Made by a program: the position numbers and the translations under genes
DNA from: a virus
Virus record (IMG/VR): IMGVR_UViG_3300022937_001750
Span: 1 to 25,881 of that record
Direction: 5' to 3' (one strand)
Length of the DNA: 25,881 nucleotides
In this document: positions 13,414 through 24,337 of the stretch, piece after piece
How positions within the stretch are numbered: position 1 is the first letter of the stretch
Layout: the number at the start of each line of letters is the position of its first letter
Notes under the pieces: generated by a model
Told to the model about the DNA's origin: nothing
The model's input: only the letters and a program-made list of their open reading frames with translations
Database searches by the model: none

Positions 13414-13742
13414 AAATAGCCGAATTTCATACGCCAGTTAACACTGATTTAAATTTTGATATTGTAGATGATGCTTCAGTATATATGAGAAATGATCCGC
13501 AATTTTACAGGAAAGAATATTATCCTACAATGGCAAAAATGGCAGACCTACACTCATCAGGAAAGTCTTTAGACAGAAGTGTAGTATTACCTATGGTTGA
13601 AAAGGGTATAGACAGCTACTGTAAAAAATATAAATTAGGAAGAGCGTCCGAAGATATTTTTAAACAACCTGATAGAGATGCCCTAATAGATAAACTATTC
13701 TCAGAGGAAATGGAGCAAATTAAAAACGGAGAGTACAAATGA
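13407..13742 (+). CDS. Small phage protein of unknown function
   Basis: The 111-residue protein starts at ATG 13407, with GGAG at 13394-13397 nine bases upstream; a TTG 15 bases earlier is less likely. It overlaps the upstream gene by seven bases and the nucleotidyltransferase gene by four (ATGA). The sequence is helical and charged (YRKEYYPTMAKMADLHSSGK, DRDALIDKLFSEEMEQIKNG) with no membrane segment and one cysteine. No function can be assigned. The tight overlaps place it in one translation unit with the tagged proteins that follow. Confidence 0.72.
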   Translation: MVKIAEFHTPVNTDLNFDIVDDASVYMRNDPQFYRKEYYPTMAKMADLHSSGKSLDRSVVLPMVEKGIDSYCKKYKLGRASEDIFKQPDRDALIDKLFSEEMEQIKNGEYK

Positions 13743-14488
13743 GACTCCGCGAACTATTTGAGGAGGCGCCTGCACAGAAAGTAGTAGCAGTTATGCCGGG
13801 AGGATTTCATCCATTTCATCCAGGACACAAAAGTTTGTATGATTGGGCTGTAGAAACATTTGGTAGAGAGAATGTGTATGTTGCAGCTACTAACGATACT
13901 ACTACAAGACCTTTTCCCTTTGATGTAAAGATAAAACTTGCACAAATGGCAGGAGTACCTGCTAATAGATTTATACAAGTCAAATCACCTTTTAATGCTT
14001 TATCATATAACGATATTATAGGTGACGCATCAAAGACAGCACTTGTATTTGTACGCAGTGAAAAAGATAAAACAAGCCACCCTTTACCAGATCAAGTTCG
14101 TAAAAGTGACGGTAATATGGGATATTTAATTTCTTATAAAGATGGAGATTTAGAAACAGCAGATACACATGGGTATCTAGCATATGGACCTACTATTGAT
14201 TTTGACTTTAGTGGTATGAGTATTAAAAGTGCTAGTGAGCTACGAGCAGCATGGCCAGAAATGTCAGACGAAGACAAATTACAGGCCGCCGAACTAATGT
14301 ATCCAGGGAATGCACAAACAGCCACGCAACTGCTTAACAAGGCACTGGGCGATCCAGAAGCACCTGTAGGCGAAGATGCAAGTGATGAAGAAGAAGATGA
14401 ATTTCACCGCAAACTAGACAAACTTGTACATAAAACATTTGGCCATAGTTCAGACGAAAAGAAAGTGAAGAAATATGGATCTAGATGA
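13739..14488 (+). CDS. Cytidylyltransferase-like nucleotidyltransferase with N-terminal tag
   Basis: The 249-residue protein carries the HxGH signature of the nucleotidyltransferase fold in MPGGFHPFHPGHKSL (HPGH at 27-30), which binds the triphosphate of ATP or CTP. A second site, SIKSASELR (161-169), matches the family's ISxTxxR loop in position. The enzyme fold begins only at about residue 14; before it stands MRLRELFEEA, which resembles the N-termini of several neighbours and contains a possible prohead-protease site L6-F-E8. The C-terminal 50 residues are acidic then basic (GEDASDEEEDE, EKKVKKYGSR). Substrate is unknown; NMN or phosphopantetheine-type acceptors are possible. I infer it may be packaged in the capsid. 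Confidence 0.8.
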   Translation: MRLRELFEEAPAQKVVAVMPGGFHPFHPGHKSLYDWAVETFGRENVYVAATNDTTTRPFPFDVKIKLAQMAGVPANRFIQVKSPFNALSYNDIIGDASKTALVFVRSEKDKTSHPLPDQVRKSDGNMGYLISYKDGDLETADTHGYLAYGPTIDFDFSGMSIKSASELRAAWPEMSDEDKLQAAELMYPGNAQTATQLLNKALGDPEAPVGEDASDEEEDEFHRKLDKLVHKTFGHSSDEKKVKKYGSR

Positions 14489-14690
14489 GCTACGTAAACT
14501 TGCAGGTATTAACGAATTCAAAGGCTACACAGAATATGTGCTAGACGAAAATCCCAGCGAAACCGCAGCAGCTCGTCGCAAACAAGAACGTGAAATGAAT
14601 ATACGTCCAGGAGATCCTGACTGGTTCCGTTTATGGTTTTCAAAACCTTACATGACTGGTCCTGTACAATTTAGAGGACGTAAGAAATGA
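14475..14690 (+). CDS. Small basic protein with LAGINE motif
   Basis: The 71-residue protein overlaps its upstream neighbour by 14 bases and its downstream neighbour by four. It begins MDLDELRKLAGINEFKGY; the core LRKLAGINE recurs as FAKLAGVTE in the protein at 18742. The rest is rich in Arg/Lys and aromatic residues (AAARRKQEREM, DWFRLWFSKPYM, FRGRKK). The I-N-E in the motif fits the [LI]-x-E type of prohead-protease site known from T4. It might be a scaffold or internal protein; function is unproven. Confidence 0.68.
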   Translation: MDLDELRKLAGINEFKGYTEYVLDENPSETAAARRKQEREMNIRPGDPDWFRLWFSKPYMTGPVQFRGRKK

Positions 14691-14977
14691 AAATATTTGA
14701 AATACTAGAAGATGCACCTACATTGACTGGCAGACAAGCAGCCTTAAGAAAACAACAACAAGCCGCATTGCTAAAAAGTAAAACATCAGATGCAGGTATG
14801 GTCGATCGTATGAATGTTGTAGGCCAAGGCATGCAAGACAAAATTAACAAAACACAAGCTGATGCTGACAGTTTAAGCAGAGCCGCAGGTATAGATCCAA
14901 ATCAAGTACAAAAAGACATACAAAAAAGTATGCAAAATCAAAATCCGAGATTAAGAGATAAGTTTAGAAAAAAATGA
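14687..14977 (+). CDS. Small helical basic protein with N-terminal tag
   Basis: The 96-residue protein opens MKIFEILEDAPT, the clearest form of the shared tag, with I6-L-E8 as a candidate cleavage site. The remainder is Gln/Lys/Ala-rich and helical (GRQAALRKQQQAALLKSK, QDKINKTQADADSLSRAAG) and ends in RLRDKFRKK. Composition and size are like T4 internal head proteins, which are small, basic and abundant in the capsid. GAGGA precedes the ATG, and both gene ends overlap neighbours by four bases. The packaged-protein role is an inference. Confidence 0.7.
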   Translation: MKIFEILEDAPTLTGRQAALRKQQQAALLKSKTSDAGMVDRMNVVGQGMQDKINKTQADADSLSRAAGIDPNQVQKDIQKSMQNQNPRLRDKFRKK

Positions 14978-16998
14978 GATTTTTAGAGTGGGGTAGAATT
15001 GTTAAAGGCGTAAACACAACAACAGACGTTGGTGTTAACGAAATCCCACGACAAGCAAAAAAGTTTGGTAATACTGTAGATAAAGACGGCCGTCCTCCTA
15101 CATTAAGTTCTAAAGTAAAAGGTAAGTCAACAAACGTACTTTTTAATTTAGGATTGACAGAAGGTATTAAATTACAATTTCAGCGTGGCGAAGATTTTGA
15201 TACATTACACATAAAACCTAAAAATAAAAATAGAGTTGAGCTTAGAGGTAAACCTGGATATGAAAGTGGAGGCTACGATGCCCAAGACAAATTACATCAA
15301 GTGTTGGATAGGCTAGGAAAAGCAGCAAACTTTTCAGAATTAATGAATGGCGAAGTTGTGAGTATAAATCCTAACCACCCAGACGGTGCTCGTGCAAAGA
15401 AAACTGCACAAGATATATTATCAACTGAAGCTCAAGAAGTTGCAAATTCTACAAAGATTTATGTAGATATGGATGGAGTGTTAGCAGACTTTTTTACCGA
15501 ATGGGGTAAATTAATGGGCAAAGACGACTGGAGAGACATAGGACAAGAAAATATCCCGGCTGCACTTGAAAAAATCAAACAAACTGAAAATTTTTGGTTA
15601 GATTTACCGTTAACTTCAAATGCAAAAAATCTTTTAAATTTGATCAAAGACGTGAAAGGATCTTACACAATATTAAGTAGTCCATTACCAGGGGATCCTA
15701 ATTCAGAGCCTCACAAACGCGAATGGATAGAAAAACACTTACAATTCTTCCCTCCAGAAGAAGTGCTTATTAGACATGACAAAGAAACATTTGCTACACA
15801 ACAAGATGGAACACCTAATATACTAATAGACGATTATGGCGTAAATATACAAAAATGGGAAGCAGCAGGCGGAGTAGGTTTCAAACACAAAGATCATAAA
15901 TTCGAAAGAACCGCACAAAATTTAAAACAACATATGCAAGAGCCTGTTAGCGAGTCTATTATTGTAGAACATCCTGCTGTAATTGCTGCACTGTATGCAG
16001 CTGGTACAACAGTTAGAGAACTTGTTAAAAGATACGGTCTAAAGGCAGTTAGACAAGCGTTAGACAAATTAAAAAAACAAAGAGCAAATACCCAAAGACC
16101 TGCTAACGACCACGGCGGTCCTATAGATGATTTAATAGCAGCATCTAAAAGAACAAGGACTCCAGACGAAATAGCACGAGCTCAACAAATGAATTTACCC
16201 AGAGCATTAGATAATGCAAAGGCAATGATTCGTACAACTTCAAGAGATTTTAGAGCAGGAAAATTAAGTAGAGAAGAATTTAATAAAATTATGCAATACG
16301 TAAGGCATAACTTTAGAAATAAAACAGGCAGAGATTTGCCAATAGAAGACTTTTTAAAACTTACAGAAAAATGGAGTGCAAAGTATAAGCGTTCAATCAA
16401 CTGTTCGAATCCAAAAGGCTTCAGTCAAAAGGCTCATTGTGCAGGACGTAAGAAAAACGAAGGCGCAGAAATTACTATGTGGACTAATCCTGAATATCAA
16501 GGCTCAGACGTTGACGACGAATATTATGAAAAACAACCAGTAAAAAGAGTAGACGTATCTAAACTTACACCTTTTGAACCTGCTGATAAAATGGATGATC
16601 CTGTAAGCAAAACTAACATGGATAACCTAGTAAAAGCGATAGAGGCAGGTAAAAAAATAAAACCTATTGTAATTGTGCAGCATGAAGATAAATGGCTTAT
16701 TGTTGACGGGCATCATAGATACTTTGCACATTTAAAAGCAGGTGCAGATAAGATACGTGCAGTTATTGCTGATCCTAAGGATTTAACTTGGCGTGATGAT
16801 GTTCCAGAAAGTGTAAAAGAAAACTTTGCTGACGGTAAAAAAAAGGGTAAAAGCAGACCAGGGCGTGTAAAGCGTTCAGGTGCTAGTTGTAATGGTAGTG
16901 TAACTGCACTACGTAAAAAAGCTAAAAATAGCAGTGGCGAGAGAGCGAGGATGTATCATTGGTGCGCAAACATGAAGAGTGGACGGAAGAAGAGTTAA
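14974..16998 (+). CDS. Multidomain protein: HAD phosphatase, ParB-like domain and two Cys-pair modules
   Basis: The 674-residue protein is a mosaic. Residues 1-155 form an unassigned N-terminal region. Residues 160-310 are a HAD-type domain: VDMDGVLADF (D165, D167), SSPLPGD, then ILIDDYG (D286-D287), most like 5'(3')-deoxyribonucleotidases. A basic helical linker follows. A module with CSNPKGFSQKAHC (477-489) comes next. Residues 526-610 resemble the ParB/sulfiredoxin N-domain (VDVSKLTPFEP, IKPIVIV, VDGHHRYFAHLKAG). The end holds a second module, GASCNGSV to MYHWCANMKSGRKKS (C639, C664). It overlaps the upstream gene by four bases. It might dephosphorylate nucleotides and act on DNA; which domains are active is unknown. 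Confidence 0.8.
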   Translation: MRFLEWGRIVKGVNTTTDVGVNEIPRQAKKFGNTVDKDGRPPTLSSKVKGKSTNVLFNLGLTEGIKLQFQRGEDFDTLHIKPKNKNRVELRGKPGYESGGYDAQDKLHQVLDRLGKAANFSELMNGEVVSINPNHPDGARAKKTAQDILSTEAQEVANSTKIYVDMDGVLADFFTEWGKLMGKDDWRDIGQENIPAALEKIKQTENFWLDLPLTSNAKNLLNLIKDVKGSYTILSSPLPGDPNSEPHKREWIEKHLQFFPPEEVLIRHDKETFATQQDGTPNILIDDYGVNIQKWEAAGGVGFKHKDHKFERTAQNLKQHMQEPVSESIIVEHPAVIAALYAAGTTVRELVKRYGLKAVRQALDKLKKQRANTQRPANDHGGPIDDLIAASKRTRTPDEIARAQQMNLPRALDNAKAMIRTTSRDFRAGKLSREEFNKIMQYVRHNFRNKTGRDLPIEDFLKLTEKWSAKYKRSINCSNPKGFSQKAHCAGRKKNEGAEITMWTNPEYQGSDVDDEYYEKQPVKRVDVSKLTPFEPADKMDDPVSKTNMDNLVKAIEAGKKIKPIVIVQHEDKWLIVDGHHRYFAHLKAGADKIRAVIADPKDLTWRDDVPESVKENFADGKKKGKSRPGRVKRSGASCNGSVTALRKKAKNSSGERARMYHWCANMKSGRKKS

Positions 16999-17093
16999 AG
17001 CACTACGTCGATAAATACAAAGAACACGAAGAACGTAAGGCAAGTACCAACGAACGAAACACATATTGGAAGCAGTATAATGAAAGTATTTGA
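16962..17093 (+). CDS. Short charged ORF bridging two genes
   Basis: Forty-three codons from GTG (or TTG three bases earlier, with GAGG at 16947-16950) run to a TGA inside the next gene. The product (RKHEEWTEEELKHYVDKYKE, then HEERKASTNERNTYWKQY) is highly charged, helical and protein-like, and it fills the 81-base gap between two larger genes with small overlaps on each side. That organisation fits the rest of the window, but shortness and the non-ATG start leave real doubt. Confidence 0.45.
   Translation: MRKHEEWTEEELKHYVDKYKEHEERKASTNERNTYWKQYNESI
17010..17017 (+). promoter_or_regulatory. Possible late promoter motif (GATAAATA)
   Basis: GATAAATA lies 12 bases after the stop of the 674-residue gene. 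The next ATG (17080) would have a leader near 57 bases with TTGGAAG before it. The motif also falls inside the short ORF at 16962, where it encodes D-K-Y, so it could be chance. Confidence 0.35.
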
Positions 17094-17976
17094 AGTATTA
17101 AGAGAAACTACAGAACAGGAAATAGCACAAGCAGCAAAAGGAATGGTTGCAAAAGCTAAAGCAGGAGATATAGGCGGTGCTGCTAACGATATGGAACGAG
17201 TACATAATAGTATAGCAAGAATGGATATAGGTTCTGGATTGTACGACTTCATGCAAAAAACTTTAAAACAATTAAAATCTCTAGTTGCAAGCAATCCTAA
17301 TCATCCTGAAGCACCAAAGTTCGTACAAGCAATTAAAGACATAGAAGCAGGATTACCGGCAATGAAACAGGCTGCGGCAGATTCAAGAAGGATGGCCGTT
17401 GATGCAGGTGCCGGACGTCAAGATGTAGGTGAAGAAATGTCCAATTCTGAAGAGGAATACAAAAACCTAATCAATCAATATTTTAGAAAAGGTTGGGGAT
17501 TTGAACTAGGCGGTGGTGCTACATACAAAATGATGTGGCACGAATTAAAGGCTGCAAGAAGATGGCTAGCACAAGCAGTTAAGGCTGGTGAGATTGAACC
17601 CGGAGTAGATGTAGCTCAAGATCTTACTATAAGAGATAAAAACGGTATTGAAGTTGGCCAGGCCGGTCATTTAACTATAAAGGCCGCAGCAGCTCTTGAT
17701 AAAGCACGTAATATGGCTAGTGCTGCTGGAAAAAAACTTTCAAGTCAACAAGTTGATAATATAACAACCCAGCATAATACAGGTGCTGAAGCTCAAAGAG
17801 ATCTTGGTGCAAACACTACCGAAGAAGGTATATTAGAAATGACATCAGGAGCCACAGGTGCTGGCAGCATAGGAGGCGCATTTGCTGGAGGCGGCAATGG
17901 TTTTGTAAACGGAGGACCAGGTACAATTACTAGAGCAGGCTCTAAGAAAAACAGAAGAAGAAGAAAAAAAGCATAA
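17080..17976 (+). CDS. Tagged helical protein with Gly-rich and poly-basic C-terminus
   Basis: The 298-residue protein begins MKVFEVLRETTEQEI, matching the shared tag, with L7-R-E9 as a possible protease site. Residues 15-240 are mostly helical and Ala-rich (IAQAAKGMVAKAKAGDIGG, KAAAALDKARNMASAAGKK). A tryptophan-rich island (RKGWGFELGGG, MMWHELKAARRWLAQAV) lies near 140-175. The end is a Gly-rich stretch (SGATGAGSIGGAFAGGGNG) followed by GSKKNRRRRKKA, a likely nucleic-acid-binding tail. Endings of the ATGAGSIG type recur in phage proteins as I recall. A packaged or DNA-associated role is plausible but not shown. Confidence 0.75.
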   Translation: MKVFEVLRETTEQEIAQAAKGMVAKAKAGDIGGAANDMERVHNSIARMDIGSGLYDFMQKTLKQLKSLVASNPNHPEAPKFVQAIKDIEAGLPAMKQAAADSRRMAVDAGAGRQDVGEEMSNSEEEYKNLINQYFRKGWGFELGGGATYKMMWHELKAARRWLAQAVKAGEIEPGVDVAQDLTIRDKNGIEVGQAGHLTIKAAAALDKARNMASAAGKKLSSQQVDNITTQHNTGAEAQRDLGANTTEEGILEMTSGATGAGSIGGAFAGGGNGFVNGGPGTITRAGSKKNRRRRKKA

Positions 17977-17979
17977 ATA
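17972..17979 (+). promoter_or_regulatory. Late promoter motif (CATAAATA)
   Basis: CATAAATAC overlaps the preceding stop and lies 21 bases before the next ATG. Transcription about six bases downstream would give a leader of some 16 bases with TAGGAG at 17988-17993, properly placed for translation of the gene at 18001. Confidence 0.6.
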
Positions 17980-18000
17980 CACTATAATAGGAGTGTTTCA

Positions 18001-18513
18001 ATGAGAATGAAAAAAATACAAGAAGGCCTAGGAGATATGGCACATCGTGCTGAAATGGATCACGAAGTCCAAATGGCACGTTCTGATTTATACAAAATTG
18101 CAAAGTATGCTATACAGCTACATGATATGCTAAAAACAGTTAGTGAAGCAGAAGGTATTGAAGGCTGGCAACAAGCAAAAATTACTAAAGCAGCAGATTA
18201 CATGTCTAGTGTATTTCATTCTCTAGATTACGACATGAAATTTGGTGATGGCGGATCGATGATGCAGCAAATGTCTACAGAATCTGCAAACTATAAAGAA
18301 ACACTTTCAAAAAAATTAGCAGAAAAATCTAACAGCACAATTTGTCCAGATTGTGGAAATCCTAGCTGGCGCACTCTTCCACAAGAAGCAATTGAAGAGG
18401 CAAAAAACAATGCAGGTAAAGAACAAGGATCTGACGGCAAGGCTTGCTGGAAAGGTTACAAATTTGCTGGTACAGAAAATGGCAAAGACAAATGTGTGCC
18501 TAGCGGAAAATGA
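18001..18513 (+). CDS. Helical protein with CxxC and Cys-pair C-terminal module
   Basis: The 170-residue protein starts MRMKKIQEGLGDMAHRAEMD; I6-Q-E8-G fits the candidate cleavage pattern of its neighbours. Residues 20-80 form a helical domain (ARSDLYKIAKYAIQLHDMLK, ITKAADYMSSVFHSLDYDMK) that I recall from other marine T4-like phages. After a linker come CPDCGNP (a CxxC pair) and a terminal module ACWKGYKFAGTENGKDKC with C-x15-C. TAGGAG is seven bases upstream of the ATG. The architecture (helical body plus removable Cys module) parallels the proteins at 12856 and 14974. Function is unknown. Confidence 0.75.
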   Translation: MRMKKIQEGLGDMAHRAEMDHEVQMARSDLYKIAKYAIQLHDMLKTVSEAEGIEGWQQAKITKAADYMSSVFHSLDYDMKFGDGGSMMQQMSTESANYKETLSKKLAEKSNSTICPDCGNPSWRTLPQEAIEEAKNNAGKEQGSDGKACWKGYKFAGTENGKDKCVPSGK

Positions 18514-18740
18514 AGATACAAGAACTATACGAAGACGAATCTTGGCTTTCAAAATTAGGTAAAACCTTATGGCATGGATTTGGCGACGATATGGATACTA
18601 TATTAGTCCCATGGGTAGATAAAAATCTTAGAAGACATGGCACACAGTGGTTATATAGAAATGTTAATAAAGAGCTAGGAGGCCATTTTACAAAAAAAGA
18701 TTTAGACACCGCAATTAAATTAGTAATGAGTAGAGGGTGA
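18510..18740 (+). CDS. Small tagged protein, 76 residues
   Basis: The protein begins MKIQELYEDESWLSKLGK, the shared tag again, with L6-Y-E8 as the candidate site. The rest contains WHGFGDDMDTILVPWVD, RRHGTQWLYRNVNKELGG and a final helix DLDTAIKLVMSRG. Starts and stops overlap as ATGA with the upstream gene, and the next ATG follows the stop by one base. No known domain is recognised. If the tag is cleaved, about 68 residues would remain, the size of a small internal head protein. Confidence 0.7.
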   Translation: MKIQELYEDESWLSKLGKTLWHGFGDDMDTILVPWVDKNLRRHGTQWLYRNVNKELGGHFTKKDLDTAIKLVMSRG

Positions 18741-18741
18741 T

Positions 18742-19458
18742 ATGACAGATTTTTATAAAATGAGCGAAATGATGAAGGGGTTGTTTCCAAGTGATCCTAT
18801 AGCAGACAGAGAAGCTCTTATGTCAATGGCCGGTAAGACGCAAGAAAGTGTTGCTCCTACTAAAGATTACGTGCAAGAAAGTGTAGAAGTACCACAAGGA
18901 TCAATGCCATTAGGTATTGATAGTTTATCAGATTTTGCAAAACTTGCAGGTGTAACAGAAAAACAACATACTGGTAGTGCAGGACAAGCAAAAGGTTCTG
19001 ATCCTATGCCCAGCACAAGCAAGCCGAGTACCACAGGCGAACAACCACATCCTTTAAAAGATAAACTAGTAGGTGAAGATCACTTTGATTCTTCAAGCAC
19101 AGTAGGCGAAGCTAGAGATAAAATTCAGAGGTGTGGAGCAGAGTTAGGGTTGCATGACGGGATTTTAGAGGTGTGGACCAGAATGGTACAAGACCTACTT
19201 ATGAAACTTTTAGTTCGACAGGAAAGGCCCTCTGGAGGCTGGCCTACTTTAGATGCTCCTATAGGAGAAAGAGAACTTACTGGCGGAGAAAAACGCAGCC
19301 GTGAAGCTAATGTAAAAAAACTTAAAAAACACAAAAGTGATTTCGAAAAACGTTATGGTGATGATGCTGAAAGTGTGATGTACGCTGTTGCAACAAAACG
19401 TGCAAAACAGGAATCTATCAAAGAACAATTATTAAAAGCGCTGAATGATTATAAATGA
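18742..19458 (+). CDS. Phage protein of unknown function with LAGVTE motif and basic C-terminal module
   Basis: The 238-residue protein has a disordered-looking first half (GSAGQAKGSDPMPSTSKPST) with LSDFAKLAGVTE at 65-76, similar to the protein at 14475. The C-terminal 60 residues (EKRSREANVKKLKKHKSDFE, RYGDDAESVMYAVATKRAKQ) look like a conserved module I recall from other phages. The stretch between, about 130-170 (VWTRMVQDLLMKLLVRQERP), is odd: it spans an 18-base imperfect repeat 40 bases apart, and another frame there reads more naturally. Two compensating frameshifts are possible. Function is unknown. Confidence 0.7.
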   Translation: MTDFYKMSEMMKGLFPSDPIADREALMSMAGKTQESVAPTKDYVQESVEVPQGSMPLGIDSLSDFAKLAGVTEKQHTGSAGQAKGSDPMPSTSKPSTTGEQPHPLKDKLVGEDHFDSSSTVGEARDKIQRCGAELGLHDGILEVWTRMVQDLLMKLLVRQERPSGGWPTLDAPIGERELTGGEKRSREANVKKLKKHKSDFEKRYGDDAESVMYAVATKRAKQESIKEQLLKALNDYK

Positions 19459-24094: not shown

Positions 24095-24337
24095 ATGAGC
24101 GAAGAACAACGTATTATCCTTATTTCAGATTTTATAGAACAAAAACTACGCAAAGAACAAGAACTAGAGTTTTATCTCAAAGAACTAGAAGAATTACAAC
24201 GTAAAATAGGTTATTTGCGTAGAGAAGTTGATCTCACCAATACAATTATCACAATGATTAAAGGCGAACAAATTTACGACATTCGAGAAGGAATGCTTGG
24301 AAATAGTAATGATAATCTACTAGGAGATAATGAATGA
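24095..24337 (+). CDS. Small coiled-coil protein
   Basis: The 80-residue protein starts at ATG 24095 (GGAG six bases upstream), directly after the polymerase stop. It is a long charged helix with heptads (FIEQKLRKEQELEFYLKELE, LQRKIGYLRREVDLTNTI) and an acidic Asn-rich end. No cysteine or motif is present. The next ATG overlaps its stop (ATGA). Function is unknown. Confidence 0.72.
   Translation: MSEEQRIILISDFIEQKLRKEQELEFYLKELEELQRKIGYLRREVDLTNTIITMIKGEQIYDIREGMLGNSNDNLLGDNE

Follow-up and report, generated by a model that had tools for sequence, protein, structure and literature searches.

Why should a run of phage genes with dissimilar products begin with nearly the same few residues? The question is raised by a cassette at positions 13,739 to 18,740 of the environmental virus record IMGVR_UViG_3300022937_001750, whose 25,881 bases, the whole of the stretch analysed, are here called the window. 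The genes at 13739, 14687, 17080, 18510 and 18001 start MRLRELFEEA, MKIFEILEDA, MKVFEVLRET, MKIQELYEDE and MRMKKIQEGL, exactly as quoted in a preliminary description of this DNA, and 5/5 match the pattern drawn from them there, M-[KR]-φ-x-[EK]-φ-x(1,2)-E (φ, hydrophobic), given a start at 18001 for the last. That description proposed a removable label directing proteins to the prohead, a proposal now supported by the register of the tag with the major capsid protein gp23, by likeness to T4 gp24 and by T4-type tags on cyanophage virion proteins. We regard it as quite probable that the cassette encodes head cargo, that is, proteins with N-terminal propeptides which are loaded into the prohead and cleaved by a gp21-type protease; targeting, cleavage and injection are what we infer. 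The tag, its concentration in the cassette, the gp23 register and the recurrence at module junctions are read from the sequences themselves, and the presence of tagged enzymes in purified cyanophage virions comes from mass spectrometry by others, in which carry-over is not excluded. Capsid-targeting propeptides are already known; modular cargo that copies the capsid arm looks to be a new form of them.

The tag ends in [LI]xE in all five genes (LFE, ILE, LRE, IQE and LYE), the start of the gene at 14974 differing in its FLE. In a test with some circularity, since the window is where the pattern came from, four of nine cassette genes match against 0/35 others (p=9e-4), and 5000 shuffles of residues 2–13 gave a mean of 0.0096 matches and a maximum of 1. 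The limits of the cassette were drawn by hand around the nucleotidyltransferase gene at 13739, and the gene caller preferred 18007 over 18001, so that the counts use four tagged genes and lose one match.

Relatives of the tagged nucleotidyltransferase were drawn from 41 IMG/VR loci, many of them short contigs. With the window excluded, the same pattern occurs at 3/33 cassette N-termini against 4/844 elsewhere in the relatives G005, G002 and G001 (p=0.0015; in G002 alone, 0/11 against 1/356). A relaxed pattern, widened after relatives had been seen, is found at 10/33 against 8/844 (p=5e-11) and, with the window added to the three relatives, at 14 of 42 cassette N-termini against 8 of 879 others; equal frequency of the tag outside the cassette, which the preliminary description had named as refuting its reading, is thus not seen. 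G004, all of whose 88,941 bases are part of G005 at 99.96%, was excluded from these counts. Across related loci, of which 15 were tabulated while family clusters were built from all, tags recur over changing bodies (for example MKIRDLLEG, MKMQDILEA, MKINEILKE, MKINELLGE, MRVHEIFEN and MLLRELFEA). They are not universal: the relaxed pattern is carried by 53 of the 112 proteins in the largest linked cassette cluster. The bodies behind the tags were said to be unrelated, which holds in general and fails for one pair, 14974 and 17080, which share a weak match of 84 residues (24% identity, E 2e-4 without composition correction). This similarity is centred on an NPNHP motif and suggests another shared module. 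Tag-bearing genes that lie outside the cassettes (G005 156675–157193; G002 206066–206455; G001 166115–166330 and 168847–169254) are possibly further head cargo, and a tagged gene starting MKVFEIISE stands about 4 kb from the portal gene in G005.

By sequence comparison, the window belongs to a lineage of the T4 superfamily, and the phage collection searched contains no close relative of it. The window is so placed because G005 (236 kb) holds gp20-, gp21- and gp23-type genes in T4 order, plus a cassette, and because the DNA polymerase of the window matches, among annotated phages, Sinorhizobium phage Phosso most closely, at 50% identity, followed by Agrobacterium phage Atu_ph07 at 46%. The gp22 of G005 is a candidate solely by its place between gp21 and gp23.

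The T4 prohead protease gp21 cleaves at sites worded [LI]xE. LIE conforms to the cleavage-site logo in the available text of PMC9026906. A sign that the tags end in such sites comes from gp23, sampled at 80 loci that gave 74 rows and 64 distinct N-termini, 45 of which were inspected. Among these 45 most read YL[SA]E/[ST]ATAGATSAGN[VI]ATLNRV, a few having YLNE or YLIE instead (here and below a slash marks a predicted cut). Copies of this mature capsid arm occur in 20 cassette-type contexts other than gp23, with E in the same register in 20/20 and a hydrophobic residue (L/I/V/M/F) at P3, two before the E, in 15/20 (p=6e-5). An initial capsid-arm expression was mis-specified and gave zero matches, and the zero shuffle expectation for arm copies is post hoc because the later expressions were shaped after viewing the sequences. 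The shared register with the predicted gp23 maturation site is strong evidence, and the last E of the tag is therefore read as a protease site. Arm copies occur in small tagged proteins (MKINELLGE/V-ATAGGTSAGSIATV; MRFREILE/A-ATAGATSAGSVASV; MRLREIIE/A-ATSGATSAGNVAAV) and also internally in long proteins; the version in the window, ILE/MTSGATGAGSI in 17080, has just 6/17 ungapped identities to the gp23 consensus arm. In cyanophage S-SM2, SSM2_108 (MKTLKQFLKE/T) and gp23 (MIAE/Q) then share 19 of 22 residues. SSM2_108 (L089 11674–12102) is a small protein that copies the mature capsid arm of its own phage. S-CREM2 gp160 (L097 28342–29235) and S-SCSM1 gp97 (L105 43121–43306), both in virion lists, likewise contain copies of their own capsid arms, in which, by eye, the E register is not kept.

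A second element precedes some of the arm copies. At the gp23 loci a LAG motif, usually N[VI][VIL]D[ILM][KR]RLAGLN, closes 54 plus-strand open reading frames (ORFs); these, not each of them checked, we presume to be gp22. A LAG[IM]xE element (LAGIKE, LAGINE or LAGMEE) lies immediately before a capsid-arm copy in L212, L213, L223 and L238, and elements of the LAGINE type may act as another label, like a scaffold tail and with a cleavage site at its end. We think that two starts absent from the preliminary description, 14974 (MRFLE/WGRIVKG) and 14475 (MDLDELRKLAGINE), belong to the same system. The features of the cassette are as follows.

13739..13762, plus strand: N-terminal tag of the nucleotidyltransferase, MRLRELFE/, with the cut predicted after E8
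13763..14488, plus strand: nucleotidyltransferase body (HPGH), cytidylyl/adenylyltransferase superfamily; PF01467 21.1 bits, cut-off 21
14475..14516, plus strand: possible tag of a second class, MDLDELRKLAGINE/, similar to the C-terminal tail of gp22, the presumed scaffold
14517..14690, plus strand: small body behind the LAGINE tag, no family match
14687..14710, plus strand: N-terminal tag MKIFEILE/, pattern match
14711..14977, plus strand: small Gln-rich body, a singleton in cassette clustering
14974..14988, plus strand: short tag-like start MRFLE/ before a GRIVKGVNTT module; an exception (FLE), with full tags in relatives, e.g. MKLRELFE/YGRIVKG
15154..15162, plus strand: predicted internal site LTE/GIKLQFQR; in relatives LAE, LTE, IIE, VKE or the N-terminal tag MKINEITMRE stands before a related module
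15448..15915, plus strand: HAD-type 5'-deoxynucleotidase module (IYVDMDGVLADFF); PF06941 30.2 bits (cut-off 24.8), phrog_2643 E 1e-20
15961..15969, plus strand: candidate internal site IVE/HPAVIAALYAAG, by motif position only
16360..16368, plus strand: predicted internal site LTE/KWSAKYKRSINC; in L024 this module has an N-terminal tag (MRWLEVTE/KWSQKYKRSINC)
16369..16458, plus strand: CSNPKGFSQKAHCAGRKK module, common to Synechococcus and Prochlorococcus phages; 17 phage records match
16588..16785, plus strand: ParB-like N-terminal domain (IVDGHHRYFAH); PF02195 24.3 bits, below the cut-off of 26.3; phrog_1033 E 5e-10
16813..16821, plus strand: predicted internal site VKE/NFADGKKKGK, the commonest junction found; E in 38/38 non-redundant contexts, LIVMF at P3 in 29/38
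16822..16998, plus strand: C-terminal basic module NFADGKKKGKSRPGRVKRSGASCNG...MYHWCANMKSGRKKS; KSRPGRVK follows an NFADG/NFSDG linker in 23 distinct contexts
17080..17106, plus strand: N-terminal tag MKVFEVLRE/, one residue longer, pattern match
17107..17829, plus strand: body with an EEYKNLINQYF... module, also in the L003 HAD protein (by eye)
17830..17871, plus strand: internal ILE/ then MTSGATGAGSI, possibly a diverged copy of the N-terminal arm of the mature major capsid protein
17872..17976, plus strand: GGGNGFVNGGPGTITR basic C-terminal module; a similar module is in the tagged small protein L036 14263
18001..18024, plus strand: N-terminal tag MRMKKIQE/ before GLGDMA; E ends 6/7 non-redundant contexts before the GLGDMA module
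18025..18513, plus strand: GLGDMA..DHEVQMARSDLYK body with CPDC and CWKGYKF motifs
18510..18533, plus strand: N-terminal tag MKIQELYE/, pattern match
18534..18740, plus strand: small body, a singleton in cassette clustering
18934..18960, plus strand: FAKLAGVTE element inside the 18742 protein, scaffold-tail-like, ending VTE

Pfam, PHROGs and NCBIfam gave no convincing name for the small tagged bodies.

The long cassette proteins, the 14974 type running to 674 residues, are chains of modules, and one module may be tagged N-terminally in one locus and lie inside a fusion in another. Thus the HAD nucleotidase module follows MRVHEIFE/NLGEIA in one form and ETILE/KLGEIA or DLEE/ALGEIA in others, MRWLEVTE/KWSQKYKRSINC in L024 corresponds to FLKLTE/KWSAKYKRSINC in the window, and MRFFEITE/NFADG to SVKE/NFADG. 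For seven modules, E directly precedes the module in 75/76 non-redundant contexts. The P3 residue is one of LIVMF in 59 of 75, against a background of 30.8% for all E in the proteomes of three relatives (p=1.5e-17, a value which overstates independence because the contexts come from related phages and the boundaries were set by eye). GRIV was excluded from this total because its expression could take in one upstream residue, and the HAD expression misses the ILSTE/AQEVANS form of the window and the EELE/NIGPN form, both of which stand outside the count. An unbiased test at alignment starts placed 135 of 356 sites within 6 residues of an [LIVM]xE, against 70.6 expected (standard deviation 7.3); it is not relied on because many of the sites fall inside families, and the seven-module count is used instead. 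The presence of [LIVMF]xE at module junctions suggests polyproteins that are cut in the prohead.

Among the 27 distinct N-termini in the family of the protein encoded at 13739, 26 carry [LI]6-x-E8 and the remaining ORF starts at the Met of MPGGF; in an alignment of 12 sequences E8 is invariant and the rest of the extension mostly variable. The structure model is mediocre, with a predicted local distance difference test score (pLDDT) of 70 overall and below 50 at residues 1–8. An HxGH nucleotidyltransferase domain is present, as judged by the HPGH motif and a PF01467 score barely above cut-off; TIGR00125 scored 24.6 bits, below its cut-off of 27.7, and no NCBIfam cut-off was reached. Foldseek placed NadD (9fyb) first, weakly (E 1.1e-3, template-modelling score 0.44), and a sequence profile search returned PPAT chains only (best E 0.008). 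A second nucleotidyltransferase in the window, at 24334, is untagged, and the tag is therefore not a trait of the superfamily.

The preliminary description compared the tags with those of the T4 internal head proteins, and this resemblance stands for the type of label, which would be removable, though not for its wording. In the T4 record IPII and IPIII begin MKTYQEFIAE, and the nearest T4 sequence is instead gp24, which begins MAKINELLRE. Like the capsid targeting sequence of IPI–III, the window tags are short N-terminal peptides before unrelated bodies with an [LI]xE-type end, and gp21- and gp23-type head genes are likewise found in a relative of the window. The Y4/F7 arrangement of MKTYQEFIAE is absent from the window tags, however, and unlike the T4 internal proteins the cargo lies in one cassette, is often multi-module and includes predicted enzymes. 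The gp24 propeptide has nearly the wording of the tags MKINEILKE and MKINELLGE, but gp24 is a shell protein, whereas nothing marks the tagged proteins examined as capsid proteins. In SPN3US and phiKZ, too, a prohead protease removes propeptides from head and ejection proteins by cutting after E, as proposed here, at AxE motifs in SPN3US and SxE in phiKZ; according to the available text of PMC5694885, those propeptides are mostly far longer than the window tags.

The Kyanoviridae offer a further parallel, with virion enzymes (NMNAT/cytidylyltransferase, S-adenosylmethionine (SAM) hydrolase and kinase, in S-CREM2 and S-SCSM1) that include a nucleotidyltransferase with a T4-type tag. The CSNPKGFSQKAHC module and capsid-arm copies occur in this family too, but its tag wording is other than that of the window and the nucleotidyltransferase bodies look merely superfamily-related. 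The S-CREM2 virion proteome, in the available text of PMC10665884, comprises 52 of 219 proteins. A scan of every start codon for ORFs of at least 35 residues found the T4-internal-protein-type pattern in five. All five are annotated genes in that virion list: gp13, gp136, a SAM hydrolase (gp6, tag MKDFDSFLEE), an APH-like kinase (gp14, MKRFDAFLTE) and a cytidylyltransferase (gp154, MKNFSSFLTE). As available, the S-CREM2 and S-SCSM1 papers report the presence of proteins and not N-terminal processing, and their available text mentions no targeting peptide. Among the papers listed in our searches none was recognised as linking capsid targeting sequences to cyanophages or to the window lineage, and no virion proteome of that lineage was found. 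S-CREM2 gp12 (L095 7704–10313), a Cas9-like protein in the virion list, has the T4-type tag wording LRFASFMAEA at residues 17–26, a hint that the annotated start lies too far upstream or that the propeptide is longer. In L091 11464–12585, what looks like a complete tag, MKNFTSFMEA, lies inside a P-TIM68 protein, as though a tagged gene had been joined onto another.

Could these peptides be something other than removable labels? They might merely dock on the scaffold or core and stay uncut, the [LI]xE being incidental to an amphipathic docking helix. The spacing of the hydrophobic residues fits a short helix, the LAGIN element, being like a scaffold tail, points to binding at the core, and the targeting and processing residues of the T4 IPIII tag are separable in the available text of PMC9026906. 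Docking by itself leaves unexplained why E stands in the gp23-site register before every one of the 20 capsid-arm copies, and why [LIVMF]xE appears again at junctions inside proteins, for which docking of the N-terminus can give no reason; we consider this alternative unlikely. Alternatively, the peptides could be short conserved crossover points for module shuffling at a variable cytoplasmic locus, with no packaging involved. Bodies and fusions do vary widely among contigs and linkers such as ENFADGKKKGK are near-identical, but the codons of the window tags, and their residues outside the motif, are not the same, so that one copied DNA segment cannot be their source, and neither the gp23 register nor the cyanophage virion proteomics is explained. 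We hold recombination points to be improbable. To chance, or ordinary N-terminal composition, we attach almost no weight: a loose hydrophobic-x-E anywhere near the N-terminus is indeed common and shows no enrichment (5/44 window genes, 5.4 expected from shuffles), but the full pattern far exceeds its shuffle expectation and holds in relatives.

A number of findings nevertheless weigh against head cargo with cleavable labels. The boundaries of modules were set by eye, so that the P1 E may merely be the first residue of the module, only P3 being independent. Exceptions to [LI]xE exist, namely MRFLE, ILSTE (the junction of the window's own HAD module, ILSTE/AQEVANS), YNE, KNE, KTE, TNE and KSE; YNE precedes an STDL module, and KNE and KTE a GAEITMW module. 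No T4-type late promoter, TATAAATA, is found in the window. By inspection, 0/5 window tags fit the T4 internal-protein wording M-K-x-[FYLW]-x-x-F-x-x-E, for which reason the likeness to a capsid targeting sequence would be one of function and not of that sequence family. The window-type pattern has no matches in S-CREM2, and the p-values for the five S-CREM2 proteins (hypergeometric p=6e-4 against 52/219; p=4e-5 against 28/195 non-structural proteins) are optimistic because the pattern was written after viewing those N-termini. An earlier, broad cyanophage pattern matched 4/28 non-structural proteins detected by mass spectrometry in that list and 2/167 undetected ones, gp30 and gp59 (p=0.004). 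Applied unchanged to S-SCSM1, the T4-internal-protein-type pattern found two ORFs, of which NMNAT gp91 is flagged as virion and gp30 is not, in the available data of PMC9602691. Enzyme carry-over is raised by the authors of both proteome papers in their available text (PMC10665884 and PMC9602691).

Co-occurrence with head genes is also only partial. The preliminary description had advised looking for a gp21-like protease beside the tagged proteins. Such a gene is present in two of 17 cassette records, G005 and G008, and was not found in the other 15, with the same result whether PF03420 or the gp21 of the relative itself was used in the search. The two gp21 proteins are 99% identical, so co-occurrence rests on two near-identical genomes, and gp21 was not found in cassette contigs of 275 kb and 180 kb. 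The records without gp21 are probably fragments, and the window contig itself is too short to bear on the matter. In reverse, a close relative of the nucleotidyltransferase with the tag is present in 0/10 gp23-bearing records, where two weak matches were seen, and in one of four records fetched by the 14974 protein; fragmentary contigs may explain the missing co-occurrence of cassette and head genes.

With these points set against it, cargo loading into the head would proceed as follows. The propeptide, M-[KR]-φ-x-[EK]-φ-x-E, would dock on the core during prohead assembly, so that the protein is built into the prohead, and the scaffold-tail-like LAGINE perhaps serves as a docking propeptide too. 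The cut of a gp21-type protease would then fall behind the E of [LI]xE, as it would in gp23, leaving the mature cargo (nucleotidyltransferase, HAD nucleotidase, ParB-like domain) in the head to travel with the DNA. Long multi-module proteins would probably be cut at [LIVMF]xE into several pieces in the prohead, some of them exposing a copy of the mature capsid arm at the N-terminus, which might seat on the inner face of the shell. The chances are near even, to our mind, of a fuller scheme in which the cargo is a polyprotein, enzyme and basic modules linked by prohead-protease sites and travelling under one label, N-terminal or scaffold-tail-like, diced in the prohead, with the arm copies of some pieces seating on the inner shell and modules acquired and shuffled at the sites to give a fast-changing injected arsenal.

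If labels of this kind are indeed in use, the head cargo of a widespread T4-like lineage could be read from sequence alone, and the enzymes in cyanophage virion proteomes, for which carry-over has been raised, would gain an explanation in targeting. The tag ends and junctions would specify the exact peptides to seek, and lineage-matched tags would lend themselves to the loading of proteins into phage heads.

Elsewhere in the window, untagged genes named by eye include PhoH, ThyA, DHFR, Clp ATPase, DnaJ and a deformylase; those found by search are the DNA polymerase and the second nucleotidyltransferase mentioned above. In L004, L008, L009, L011, L012 and L014 a protein beginning like MRFSEFRPILTEA, with an HLEDLVF motif, lies upstream of the nucleotidyltransferase, and none was seen in the window; we take it to resemble a ligase-like cyanophage family. 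Two untagged proteins near tagged genes, L019 14578–15699 and L009 13659–14591, have Cys motifs reminiscent of radical SAM enzymes. Finally, CATAAATA at 17972–17979, an octamer resembling a T4 late promoter and the sole [TC]ATAAATA in the window, stands shortly before the 18001 start.

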